From assembly GCF_030814655.1 (NCBI RefSeq), contig NZ_JAUSVK010000001.1, positions 3,665,001 to 3,729,000 of the forward strand: 64,000 nucleotides of DNA. The letters are read 5' to 3'. Shown here in pieces: positions 12,753-17,389 of this stretch. Position 1 is the stretch's first letter. Each line of letters opens with the position of its first letter. Made by a program: the position numbers and the translations under genes. The notes under the pieces are model-generated. The model was not told where the DNA came from. It worked only from the letters and a program-made list of their open reading frames with translations, and searched no databases. Origin of the DNA: Labrys monachus. Its GTDB lineage: Bacteria > Pseudomonadota > Alphaproteobacteria > Rhizobiales > Labraceae.

Positions 12753-12786
12753 TTACGGGGCAGTTTACTTAATGAGTTTTGATTTC
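12753..12786 (-). repeat. remnant of a second RAYT 3' end, abutting intron copy 1
   Basis: Read on the minus strand, this stretch begins exactly where the left intron ends and spells the last codons of a RAYT gene (K-S-K-L-I-K, stop) followed by the AGTAAACTGCCCCGTAAT flank. It is nearly identical, one base shorter, to the sequence at the end of the RAYT gene at 15425-15460. The rest of this second RAYT is absent. Confidence 0.75.
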
Positions 12787-14713
12787 GTAGAGTCGAGGAA
12801 GGGCGCGGTAGCTTGAGCCATTCGGCAACGCCCCGTTTCCCTTCCCCGCTCATCAAACCGGACGTGCGGATTTCCCGCATCCGGCTTTCCGGGTGGCTTC
12901 ATTGTAAGGCCCACGACGGGACACAGGATGCACGCGTCTGAGCTGGCGCACACCGAGTTCGGCGAAGATGGTGCTTCGCGAGAACGCTGATGTGCCGCTG
13001 TTTTGCTCCTTGTGTCGTTTGGCGAGGAAGTGCCTCACGCGGTCAACGACATGATGATCGGCCGCCTGATACGTCAGCGACAGCGAGCCATAGCCGAAGT
13101 AGGCCGACCAGCCAGCCAGAAGGCTGTTCAGTCGATCCCGCACGTCGGGCCATGATCCCTTGTTGCCGGGCACCAGCAGATCGCTCACCTTGCCTTTCAA
13201 CCGTTGCAGGCTCCTGGCGGACGGACTGGCGCCGAGATAAAGGCGGCCATCCTTGCTATGACGATGCGGACCGAACGTGTAGCCGAGGAAGTCGAAGCGC
13301 TCGGTTCGAGCTTCCTTCACCGAGGTTTTCGCCTCGTTGATCGTCAGCCCGAGCCTTGTCATCACCGCCTTCGTCCACGCCAGCGCCTCTGCCGCGTGGC
13401 CGCGGCTGAGGATGACGAAGTCGTCGGCGTAGTTGACGACATGCGCCCTGAACGCCTCGCCGCAAGCAGCAAGACGCCAGTGCTTCAGGAACCGGTTCAT
13501 GTAGAGGTTGGCCAGCAACGGGCTGACGACACCACCCTGCGGCGTGCCGAGCCGGTTGCGCTTGCCACCCATCCTGCGCCGGGTTCCATCCTCGCCTTGT
13601 TCCTCGACCGGCACTTTGAGCCACATCCGGATCAGATGCAGCACATGCCGGTCACAGGTACGACGAGATACCGACTTCATCAGTTCAGGGTGCGGGATCG
13701 TATCGAAGTACTTCGACAAATCCGCATCCACCACATCCGTATACCCTCCAAGCAAGTGCTGGTGCACCTGCCGGATCGCCTCGGCGGCGCCCTGCTGGGG
13801 ACGATAGCCGTAAGCAGTCCTTTCCAGGTCCGCTTCGAAGATCGGCTCGAGCACAAGCTTGGCGGCGGTCTGAACAACCCGGTCCCGTATCGTCGGGATG
13901 CCGAGCGGGCGTTCACCGCCTCCCGGCTTGGGGATGATCACCCGCCGTACAGCCTGCGGCCGATACGTCTTCGAAGCGAGGTCCTTACCCAATGCCGCCA
14001 GCCAGTTCTCGACACCGCCCGCCTCGATCTGCGCAAAGCTCATCCCGTCAACACCCGATGCACCCCCATTCTCACGGGCACGCAACCAGGCATGGTGCAG
14101 GATGTCTTCACGGTAGATCTTGTCGTACAGTGCATAGAAGCGGAAGGCAGGCTCCGCCTTCGCCTTGCAATACAGCTTTCTTTGAAGAATCCGGATCCGT
14201 TCGGGCGTTGCTAGACGCATCGTCAATCGCCTCCACCTCATCTTTGCCGAAAGCACACCACAAGTCAGGGGCCTTCCCTCCACCGGCATTACCCGGTCTC
14301 GACAGTACTACGCCCCTGTCCGACTCCCGCCCGATGCCGCTGTCCTGAATGACAGCGTTGAGGACGCGACCCCCGCACCAAACGGGTCTCCCCCGATTAC
14401 GCCCACCACCTTGCCGGCGTGCCGTGCCCACTACCCCGGTGAACCGGACGGGTGCAGATGTCGATTGCTTCCCCCTCCGCGCGGCCTTCCCCGGTAATCC
14501 GGCGGGTCGGCGCTCACATCTCGACTTTCGAGGCCTGCTCAGGCTTTACTCACATTACGGCCCACCGGCTCGCTCAACCGCCCAGGGCGGCCTTTGTCAC
14601 GAGGCTCCGGCCCGCCCAATTACCCGGACAAGCCGCTCGTCTGCTACCGGATCAATCGACAACTGTCCGGGTGGAATCTTCCTCCACTGGTGATGTACAC
14701 CGTCGGGGCGCAC
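12787..14713 (-). mobile_element. group II intron, copy 1 (1927 bp)
   Basis: A complete bacterial group II retroelement. Its 5' end on the minus strand is GTGCGCCCCGAC (position 14713 leftward), matching the GUGYG consensus, and its 3' end is AC at 12787, matching AY. Domain V, a 34-nt hairpin with the AGC triad and GGGAAATCC loop region, lies at about 12855-12888. It encodes a reverse transcriptase/maturase. Length and termini equal those of copy 2 at 15463-17389, in the opposite direction. Boundaries come from comparing the two copies: identity stops exactly at these bases. Confidence 0.92.
12853..14220 (-). CDS. ltrA: group II intron reverse transcriptase/maturase (copy 1)
   Basis: A 455-residue intron-encoded protein that helps the intron RNA splice and copies it into new DNA sites. 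Reverse-transcriptase blocks are in order: YREDILHHAWLRARENGGAS, IPKPGGGERPLGIPTIRDRV, YGYRPQQGA, VVDADLSKYFDTI, TPQGGVVSPLLANLYMN, the catalytic NYADDFVIL, and FDFLGYTF, followed by the maturase X domain (LNSLLAGWSAYFGYGS). No H-N-H endonuclease domain follows, so mobility probably relies on nicks made during replication. The reading frame continues through domain V and stops just after it. I chose the ATG at 14220 because GGTGGAGG precedes it; an ATG 7 codons earlier is possible. Identical in sequence to copy 2. Confidence 0.95.
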   Translation of the reverse strand: MRLATPERIRILQRKLYCKAKAEPAFRFYALYDKIYREDILHHAWLRARENGGASGVDGMSFAQIEAGGVENWLAALGKDLASKTYRPQAVRRVIIPKPGGGERPLGIPTIRDRVVQTAAKLVLEPIFEADLERTAYGYRPQQGAAEAIRQVHQHLLGGYTDVVDADLSKYFDTIPHPELMKSVSRRTCDRHVLHLIRMWLKVPVEEQGEDGTRRRMGGKRNRLGTPQGGVVSPLLANLYMNRFLKHWRLAACGEAFRAHVVNYADDFVILSRGHAAEALAWTKAVMTRLGLTINEAKTSVKEARTERFDFLGYTFGPHRHSKDGRLYLGASPSARSLQRLKGKVSDLLVPGNKGSWPDVRDRLNSLLAGWSAYFGYGSLSLTYQAADHHVVDRVRHFLAKRHKEQNSGTSAFSRSTIFAELGVRQLRRVHPVSRRGPYNEATRKAGCGKSARPV

Positions 14714-15446: not shown

Positions 15447-15462
15447 ACTGTCCCCGTAATTC
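15425..15462. repeat. RAYT right flanking repeat
   Basis: Contains the original end of the RAYT gene (codons for K-S-K-L-I-K and stop) and then ACTGTCCCCGTAATTC, the inverted counterpart of 14714-14731. The right intron starts at the next base, 15463. Confidence 0.85.
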
Positions 15463-17389
15463 GTGCGCCCCGACGGTGTACATCACCAGTGGAGGAAGAT
15501 TCCACCCGGACAGTTGTCGATTGATCCGGTAGCAGACGAGCGGCTTGTCCGGGTAATTGGGCGGGCCGGAGCCTCGTGACAAAGGCCGCCCTGGGCGGTT
15601 GAGCGAGCCGGTGGGCCGTAATGTGAGTAAAGCCTGAGCAGGCCTCGAAAGTCGAGATGTGAGCGCCGACCCGCCGGATTACCGGGGAAGGCCGCGCGGA
15701 GGGGGAAGCAATCGACATCTGCACCCGTCCGGTTCACCGGGGTAGTGGGCACGGCACGCCGGCAAGGTGGTGGGCGTAATCGGGGGAGACCCGTTTGGTG
15801 CGGGGGTCGCGTCCTCAACGCTGTCATTCAGGACAGCGGCATCGGGCGGGAGTCGGACAGGGGCGTAGTACTGTCGAGACCGGGTAATGCCGGTGGAGGG
15901 AAGGCCCCTGACTTGTGGTGTGCTTTCGGCAAAGATGAGGTGGAGGCGATTGACGATGCGTCTAGCAACGCCCGAACGGATCCGGATTCTTCAAAGAAAG
16001 CTGTATTGCAAGGCGAAGGCGGAGCCTGCCTTCCGCTTCTATGCACTGTACGACAAGATCTACCGTGAAGACATCCTGCACCATGCCTGGTTGCGTGCCC
16101 GTGAGAATGGGGGTGCATCGGGTGTTGACGGGATGAGCTTTGCGCAGATCGAGGCGGGCGGTGTCGAGAACTGGCTGGCGGCATTGGGTAAGGACCTCGC
16201 TTCGAAGACGTATCGGCCGCAGGCTGTACGGCGGGTGATCATCCCCAAGCCGGGAGGCGGTGAACGCCCGCTCGGCATCCCGACGATACGGGACCGGGTT
16301 GTTCAGACCGCCGCCAAGCTTGTGCTCGAGCCGATCTTCGAAGCGGACCTGGAAAGGACTGCTTACGGCTATCGTCCCCAGCAGGGCGCCGCCGAGGCGA
16401 TCCGGCAGGTGCACCAGCACTTGCTTGGAGGGTATACGGATGTGGTGGATGCGGATTTGTCGAAGTACTTCGATACGATCCCGCACCCTGAACTGATGAA
16501 GTCGGTATCTCGTCGTACCTGTGACCGGCATGTGCTGCATCTGATCCGGATGTGGCTCAAAGTGCCGGTCGAGGAACAAGGCGAGGATGGAACCCGGCGC
16601 AGGATGGGTGGCAAGCGCAACCGGCTCGGCACGCCGCAGGGTGGTGTCGTCAGCCCGTTGCTGGCCAACCTCTACATGAACCGGTTCCTGAAGCACTGGC
16701 GTCTTGCTGCTTGCGGCGAGGCGTTCAGGGCGCATGTCGTCAACTACGCCGACGACTTCGTCATCCTCAGCCGCGGCCACGCGGCAGAGGCGCTGGCGTG
16801 GACGAAGGCGGTGATGACAAGGCTCGGGCTGACGATCAACGAGGCGAAAACCTCGGTGAAGGAAGCTCGAACCGAGCGCTTCGACTTCCTCGGCTACACG
16901 TTCGGTCCGCATCGTCATAGCAAGGATGGCCGCCTTTATCTCGGCGCCAGTCCGTCCGCCAGGAGCCTGCAACGGTTGAAAGGCAAGGTGAGCGATCTGC
17001 TGGTGCCCGGCAACAAGGGATCATGGCCCGACGTGCGGGATCGACTGAACAGCCTTCTGGCTGGCTGGTCGGCCTACTTCGGCTATGGCTCGCTGTCGCT
17101 GACGTATCAGGCGGCCGATCATCATGTCGTTGACCGCGTGAGGCACTTCCTCGCCAAACGACACAAGGAGCAAAACAGCGGCACATCAGCGTTCTCGCGA
17201 AGCACCATCTTCGCCGAACTCGGTGTGCGCCAGCTCAGACGCGTGCATCCTGTGTCCCGTCGTGGGCCTTACAATGAAGCCACCCGGAAAGCCGGATGCG
17301 GGAAATCCGCACGTCCGGTTTGATGAGCGGGGAAGGGAAACGGGGCGTTGCCGAATGGCTCAAGCTACCGCGCCCTTCCTCGACTCTAC
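15463..17389 (+). mobile_element. group II intron, copy 2 (1927 bp)
   Basis: The same element as copy 1 in the opposite orientation: 5' end GTGCGCCCCGAC at 15463, domain V at about 17288-17321, 3' end AC at 17389. The last 21 bases of the 5' exon (ending CCCCGTAATTC) are the same for both copies; the 3' exons differ (CCCGGGTGG here). GGATTAC at 15676-15682 can pair with the last seven exon bases GTAATTC (one G-U pair), so it is a candidate exon-binding site 1. Confidence 0.92.
15956..17323 (+). CDS. ltrA: group II intron reverse transcriptase/maturase (copy 2)
   Basis: Identical in protein sequence to copy 1 over the whole frame, which means a recent duplication or gene conversion between the copies. 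All reverse-transcriptase motifs including YADD are intact, so this copy looks active. As in copy 1, the C-terminal residues are encoded by domain V (last residues CGKSARPV) and the TGA lies just after it. The start at 15956 follows GGTGGAGG by ten bases. Confidence 0.95.
   Translation: MRLATPERIRILQRKLYCKAKAEPAFRFYALYDKIYREDILHHAWLRARENGGASGVDGMSFAQIEAGGVENWLAALGKDLASKTYRPQAVRRVIIPKPGGGERPLGIPTIRDRVVQTAAKLVLEPIFEADLERTAYGYRPQQGAAEAIRQVHQHLLGGYTDVVDADLSKYFDTIPHPELMKSVSRRTCDRHVLHLIRMWLKVPVEEQGEDGTRRRMGGKRNRLGTPQGGVVSPLLANLYMNRFLKHWRLAACGEAFRAHVVNYADDFVILSRGHAAEALAWTKAVMTRLGLTINEAKTSVKEARTERFDFLGYTFGPHRHSKDGRLYLGASPSARSLQRLKGKVSDLLVPGNKGSWPDVRDRLNSLLAGWSAYFGYGSLSLTYQAADHHVVDRVRHFLAKRHKEQNSGTSAFSRSTIFAELGVRQLRRVHPVSRRGPYNEATRKAGCGKSARPV

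Follow-up and report, generated by a model that had tools for sequence, protein, structure and literature searches.

Why should one transposase gene be bracketed by two identical group II introns that point away from each other? The question is raised by a window of 64,000 nucleotides (nt) from the genome of Labrys monachus (contig NZ_JAUSVK010000001.1, positions 3,665,001 to 3,729,000; window coordinates are used below), in which a Y1 tyrosine transposase gene between terminal inverted repeats (TIRs) is flanked by intron copies that we call A1 and A2. Our answer, to which we give a probability of roughly 0.8, is that the element is a TIRtron and that one mobile group II intron has inserted at each of its tips, where it would read a tip motif through its exon-binding site 1 (EBS1).

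Two identical introns at the transposon tips

Copy A2 lies at 12787-14713 on the minus strand (5' end GTGCGCCCCG at 14713, 3' end CTCTAC at 12787) and copy A1 at 15463-17389 on the plus strand. Each has 1927 nt and the two are identical; together with 21 nt of common 5' exon, AGTAAACTGTCCCCGTAATTC, they form a perfect inverted repeat of 1948 nt (12787-14734 and 15442-17389, 100%). This repeat bears out what a sequence-only reading of the locus had claimed, namely two 1927-bp copies in opposite orientation with the same ends, identical proteins and a shared 21-base 5' exon. Both copies sit directly outside the inverted repeats of the transposase gene (14764-15459, plus strand) and face outward, and their 3' exons are unrelated. 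The intron starts with GTGCG and ends with AC. On both copies Rfam finds part of group II domain I as well as domains V/VI (RF02003, 94.5 bits; RF00029, 47.4 bits, stopping at the last intron base), and the domain V/VI matches end exactly at 12787 in A2 and at 17389 in A1; the conserved ends and domains of the ribozyme are thus present. The reverse transcriptase (RT)/maturase genes of A2 (12853-14289, minus) and A1 (15887-17323, plus) encode the same protein of 478 amino acids. In the A1 protein, on which the family scans were done, RVT_1 and the intron-specific domain GIIM are found, with PF00078, PF08388 and TIGR04416 above cut-off (TIGR04416 345 bits, cut-off 300); no endonuclease domain is among its Pfam matches. 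The best sequence match among solved structures is the GsI-IIC RT, a match that does not fix the class of the intron.

Pairing of the intron with the tip

The TIRs, AGTAAACTGTCCCCGTAAT reading outward, are located at 14716-14734 (left, minus strand) and 15442-15460 (right, plus strand). The seven bases before each intron, GTAATTC, form the putative intron-binding site 1 (IBS1) at the tip of the left TIR for A2 (14714-14720, minus) and of the right TIR for A1 (15456-15462, plus). The partner of this site was sought by a covariation scan, in which six-base intron windows were compared with exon positions in 28 related introns with 300 permutations; 29 introns were aligned, and one (L094), whose alignment start was shifted, was left out by hand. 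The top window was intron nt 214-219 with exon positions -1 to -6, which scored 5.48 of 6 against 2.55 expected (z 11.3). This window points to GGATTAC at intron nt 214-220 as EBS1 (15676-15682, plus, in A1; 14494-14500, minus, in A2), and GGATTAC pairs with GTAATTC at 6.5 of 7 positions (one G-U) at both window tips. For comparison, 5,000 random 7-mers of the window had a mean score of 2.16, and 0.04% of them reached 6. A second intron of the genome, B, which is 75% identical to A, reads ACGGTGA where A has its EBS1, and this is exactly complementary to the B exon TCACCGT. The EBS1-IBS1 pairing of a mobile group II intron is therefore found. TGTC upstream of the A IBS1 is conserved. The next-best non-overlapping signal has z 3.6 and falls in two regions, nt 188-193 with exon -8, a candidate EBS2, and nt 39-44. 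GGACAGT at intron nt 46-52 was tried as EBS2 and rejected; it is located in a loop region whose shape, judged by eye, is kept in relatives with other exons.

Recognition of the site of A by pairing of EBS1 GGATTAC with exon GTAATTC appears well supported by these comparisons, and most likely both window introns were placed by the same short tip sequence. Since the tips are inverted repeats, A1 and A2 would then have opposite orientations. A single target preference had been proposed for the pair from the sequence alone; the base-pairing element that would carry such a preference has now been found and checked for its target.

Insertion sites in the genome

The genome is one contig of 6.92 Mb and contains seven full copies of A and four of B. 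Six A copies have the same sequence, from which the seventh departs at 4 positions. In four of the seven (both window copies, L003 and L004), the 5' exon is within one mismatch of the tip motif ACTGTCMCYGYAATTC; two others (L005 and L007) are located five bases 3' of a B copy that itself sits in the motif. All four full B copies have the 5' exon TGC[AC]CTGTCA[CT]CG[TC], and the B insertion point is five bases upstream of the A insertion point in the same motif. A truncated B in the window (first 47 nt, 17391-17437, minus, directly 3' of A1) also follows a TIR-like 5' exon (17438-17461, minus), which ends in GTGCAGTGTCACCGT. The 16-nt tip motif with at most one mismatch has 13 sites in the genome and its reversed-pattern control 0, and A is inserted at 3 of the 4 exact matches in the 6.92 Mb; for these reasons we dismiss occupancy by chance. 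GYAATTC alone has roughly 1,300-1,550 occurrences in the genome (extrapolated). A second motif pattern finds 19 sites (reversed control 0), and at 8 of them an inverted partner lies 47-71 nt upstream.

The copies elsewhere bear on two other accounts of the pair. If a single insertion at one tip had been followed by a local exchange between the inverted TIRs, through recombination or gene conversion, A1 and A2 would be identical and have the 21-nt exon in common, as they do. However, with identity the rule among A copies genome-wide, it is no sign of conversion here; the 3' exons of the pair are unrelated, and other motif sites in the genome have also been entered by introns. We consider this account unlikely. 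Short reads have difficulty with perfect inverted repeats of 1.95 kb, and an assembly artefact could have duplicated a single intron across the inverted repeat, but the genome is in one contig, the 3' flanks of A1 and A2 differ and unlinked copies show the same tip habit, which leaves very little room for it.

A further account takes a DNA hairpin as the target and the sequence match as secondary. Group IIC introns insert at terminators or attC sites and need the hairpin; like A, they use one class of short repeat repeatedly. One inverted tip dimer of the genome folds strongly (68 nt, z -7.7), and two of ten insertion sites fold clearly better than shuffles (L003, z -2.6; B_L008, z -4.3). The other eight, including both window tips, fold no better than shuffles, so that insertion beside a DNA hairpin is not the habit of these introns, whereas a linear motif is common to nine of the ten sites (the tenth is that of the A copy L006). 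In contrast to group IIC, the motif of A and B is shared mostly without a hairpin, and we have rejected the hairpin as the target, judging it improbable.

Recognition of the tip motif itself also separates the target from the transposase gene. A search of the window and of the eight stretches with other A or full B copies by tblastn, with the window transposase as query (which would miss more distant transposases), showed the window to be the only one of these stretches in which A has a transposase gene as its neighbour. With 2 of 7 A copies beside such a gene, the target is taken to be the tip motif, not the transposase gene.

Other arrangements of B were seen in the genome. At L141 (G000:C1:1753400-1754003), a B 3' fragment adjoins a distant transposase gene that has decayed (two stops; 35% identity). 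Tandems of the form B-AATTC-A, with the introns five bases apart, occur at L135 (G000:C1:5030926-5034776) and L136 (G000:C1:5537001-5540852), where ordered splicing may be needed. A 104-nt B 3' end is located directly after a full B, four bases apart, at L013/L137 (G000:C1:1738636-1738739).

The bracketed element

Two kinds of element come into question for the middle segment. Repetitive extragenic palindromes (REPs), as described in the passages available from PMC2817692, have a GT(A/G)G head and a palindrome and stand inverted around the gene of a REP-associated tyrosine transposase (RAYT). TIRYT, in the corresponding passages of PMC6006769, is a RAYT-like transposase between TIRs (subclass 2.1, whose C-terminal extension resembles a helix-turn-helix) with a Y---NP motif rule, and GGGGWSAS is a motif of some TIRs around TIRYT genes (PMC3733652; PMC6006769, likewise in excerpt). 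The middle open reading frame (ORF) of the window is a Y1 transposase (Pfam Y1_Tnp, E 1.4e-11), and the NCBIfam model for the REP-associated transposase, NF047646, scores 79.3 bits, just under its cut-off of 80. The sequence contains HVH and YVSLNP, the HUH and Y---NP motifs of the TIRYT type. The stop codon is inside the right repeat, and the gap between ORF and intron is 3 nt. The complement of the TIR contains GGGGACAG, which corresponds to GGGGWSAS. The window repeats fold no better than expected (z 0.43 and 1.20) and are not REPs because they lack the hairpin fold; two inverted REPs with a GT(A/G)G head and a palindrome, as in a REPtron, are not found at these tips. Since there is no REP hairpin and GGGGWSAS is in the TIRs, the element was named a TIRtron, and a RAYT-like Y1 transposase between TIRs of this kind classes it by its sequence features as TIRYT/TIRtron rather than REP/RAYT with hairpin REPs. 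The sequence-only reading was right in seeing a transposase gene between inverted repeats, and the REP label is given up; its proposal that the intron homes to RAYT/REP flanks is largely supported in a changed form, as homing to a tip motif that belongs to a TIRtron and is separate from the transposase gene.

The transposase gene has a 17-bp tandem duplication (15271-15304, plus); past this point, the reading frame of the last 54 residues departs from that of a second, intronless TIRtron copy (G000:C1:2683155-2683882; 96.8% to 14716-15460, repeat to repeat). With this C-terminus, the window transposase matches only Y1_Tnp in Pfam at E 1e-3; the transposase of the second copy was scanned against NCBIfam only. 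The tips of the second copy are GTAATAC and GTAATCG, which break the pairing with EBS1. When up to two mismatches were allowed, the tip motif was not found beside four distant transposase genes of the same genome (L128-L131); at L128, two matches with three mismatches lie about 1 kb from the gene. Across the order, the TIR AGTAAACTGTCMCCGTAAT is present in 11 of 121 genomes, this one included (control 0). Eight stretches with the TIR were fetched, and five held six homologous transposase genes (58-78% identity); the TIR starts 46-48 nt upstream of all six and is also found downstream of five. The other three stretches gave no match to the transposase. On plasmids, the transposase was found in 23 records, all below 60% identity.

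Relatives of the introns and of their target

Motif sites are present in all four sister species (6, 3, 5 and 10 sites; controls 1, 0, 0 and 2). Fifteen of these 24 sites were fetched, and in three (L188, L192 and L199) the motif flanks a homologous transposase gene (34-58% identity). No full A or B copy was found in the four sister genomes, two of which are drafts of 60 or 140 contigs; a single 47-nt match in G002 is lost at a stricter limit. As the sister species have motif sites, some of them beside transposase genes, without full introns, the target most likely predates the introns. The A junction pattern, searched in 397 genomes of the order, was found in the own genome and at one two-mismatch site in G340, which has GCGCGCC where the intron would read GTGCGCC. 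Exact junction patterns gave 0 matches each in viral contigs.

A tree was built from the 21 RT proteins that a stop and length filter left of 32 candidate rows (one stop read as X in 13 of the 21); of its 18 inner forks, 8 are open. A and B come out as sisters (support 99/97) and sit within a set in which 13 rows have the label of another tip, CTARCCCG..TTCA. Eighty loci of related introns gave 49 readable 5' exons, which a scripted rule sorted: 14 CTARC(C/G), 4 in ORFs that we take to be of IS5 type and 2 in ORFs that we take to be of IS110 type, from motifs and plasmid annotation, and 29 other. The eight plasmid loci that were opened, of 51 records, have CTARCCCG in five cases, IS5 in one and other exons in two. 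Nine of ten chosen ORFs near the CTARCCCG tip were scanned; four match DDE_Tnp_1_4 (L037, L038, L180 and L185), five do not, and the L185 neighbour is annotated IS1380. The CTARCCCG tip is thus most likely that of IS1380. At L183, on a plasmid of Mesorhizobium sp. AR02, a related intron whose 5' exon is of the CTAACCCG type has type III secretion genes on one side and an integrase gene on the other.

Plasmid NZ_CP016288.1 of Rhizobium leguminosarum Vaf10 contains an IS1380 transposase between two inverted 1930-bp intron copies (99.9%), both of which follow TARCCCGMATCTCTCA. Bracketing of a transposase gene by introns is, from this case, not unique to the window. As in the window, two near-identical inverted introns, here copies of a close relative, surround one transposase gene; unlike there, the element is another one, the introns point inward and their EBS1 is different.

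Possible inversion of the core

The 3' exon of A2 is an outer left tip copy (12751-12786, minus; 31 nt, 97% repeat) and is a copy of the right TIRtron end, even though its neighbour in the core is the left end. Copies of the tip in tandem also occur at L235, L237 and partly L134. L235 is the only other locus with a readable type; its outer tip is of the same type as the end next to it, and the window would regain this order if the core were flipped between A1 and A2. We therefore considered that recombination between A1 and A2 flipped the core after both insertions, an addition to insertion by tip recognition rather than an alternative to it. Inversion of an insertion sequence (IS) by TIR-TIR recombination has been published (PMC3004938). 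However, L235 is the only informative comparison, an older tip could already have been in place where the element landed, and identical introns leave no recombination scar. The genus yielded no locus that is empty or inverted: besides short or repeat matches, the left flank is matched only in G004 (window 11759-12555), and that locus has no further match to 9001-26000. The second TIRtron locus was rejected as proof of inversion, the shared 1.27-kb flank being a dispersed repeat (15 places of at least 0.93 kb). Invertibility of the middle segment by its long repeats would be plausible; that the flip has already taken place seems to us to have slightly less than an even chance.

The dispersed repeat itself lies right of A1 (17530-18800). 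It is GC-rich and about 1.25 kb long, with 15 places of at least 0.93 kb in the genome including its own, the others 82-93% identical, and many shorter pieces. One end of two copies borders on a TIR-like site, six copies that were compared do not have the same longest open frame, and no Rfam family matches it at gathering scores in the window. Left of the element (11760-12562), a TacA1-type antitoxin gene is followed by a GNAT acetyltransferase gene (Pfam), likely a toxin-antitoxin pair.

Discussion

The course of events that we propose starts from the anatomy of the locus, the complementarity of EBS1 and the repeated use of the motif, all of which are observed directly. Intron RNA with its RT would reverse-splice into DNA 3' of the tip TGTCMCCGTAATTC, with EBS1 GGATTAC pairing to IBS1 GTAATTC during insertion of A. 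The inverted tips would then give two A copies in opposite orientation, facing outward. The sister intron B, with its EBS1 ACGGTGA, would use this tip family too, at a point that follows TGTCACCGT and lies five bases upstream; the order tip-B-AATTC-A, seen in two places, would be expected if B entered a tip already holding A. Reverse splicing as the route and the order of the insertions are what we infer. A more ambitious version has A and B as TIRtron-tip specialists that shifted from IS1380 tips and came to occupy two registers by EBS1 change, with an invertible cassette that has already flipped and with B splicing first in the tandems to restore the A 5' exon; taken as a whole, we regard it as doubtful.

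Several observations count against placement of A by the tip motif. Copies at unrelated sites had been named in the sequence-only reading as telling against it; six of the seven A copies are tied to the motif, and the exception, L006, is at GATGTCACGGTAATGT, which is outside the motif even when one mismatch is allowed. L004 has one mismatch to the motif, and its context shows no second tip. EBS1 of A pairs at 5.5 of 7 positions at L003 and L006 and at 4.5 at L005 and L007, and the candidate EBS2 of A (about nt 187-193, weak z 3.6) pairs unconvincingly with the TIR. The first 3'-exon base is G at A2 and C at the other six A copies. The permutation behind the covariation z ignores the relatedness of the introns. 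Tabulating 5' exons elsewhere had been proposed as a check; reuse of the motif holds in the own genome, but a TIRtron tip is the 5' exon in 0 of 66 relatives elsewhere (49 of the 80 loci, 8 plasmid loci and 9 further places in the order, sets that may overlap).

RmInt1 is an intron without endonuclease that homes to ISRm2011-2, with its target inside the insertion sequence. Intron A likewise lacks the endonuclease and would home to a mobile element; its proposed target is a tip repeat common to the transposon and to dispersed repeats. In Pseudomonas putida KT2440, two of nine copies of a group II intron are located at REPs (PMC1525189, in the passages available). Like A, that intron sits within a short repeat that is dispersed and belongs to a Y1-transposase system, and it is a published precedent for introns at this general kind of repeat; it differs in that two of nine copies are concerned, the passages give no base-pairing basis and hairpin REPs take the place of TIRs. 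Published TIRtrons resemble the window element in their RAYT-like transposase, in TIRs some of which have GGGGWSAS and in TIRs that are also dispersed singly or as dimers (PMC3733652; PMC6006769, in the excerpts at hand). The word "intron" has 0 occurrences in PMC3733652, and "TIRYT" has 0 in PMC3686654. RAYT is among the domains occasionally near RT genes in the passages of PMC8934634, a bare mention that resembles the window in the closeness of the two genes, with RT class, place and target unstated. Introns at TIRtron tips are not reported in the available passages of PMC11708052, PMC1590033, PMC2873474 and PMC8934634, nor in titles and abstract openings among the matches listed from the openly licensed literature.

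The finding is real, its parts are ordinary, and we consider the target rule both well supported and testable. It would tie group II introns to TIRtrons and offer a clean natural case of a retroelement changing its address, in which two sister introns use seven-base guides of their own at neighbouring positions of one repeat family while belonging to a lineage with many members at another transposon tip. Pairs of inverted tips would turn such insertions into bracketed transposase genes with inverted repeats that are long and perfect, through which local inversions might arise.

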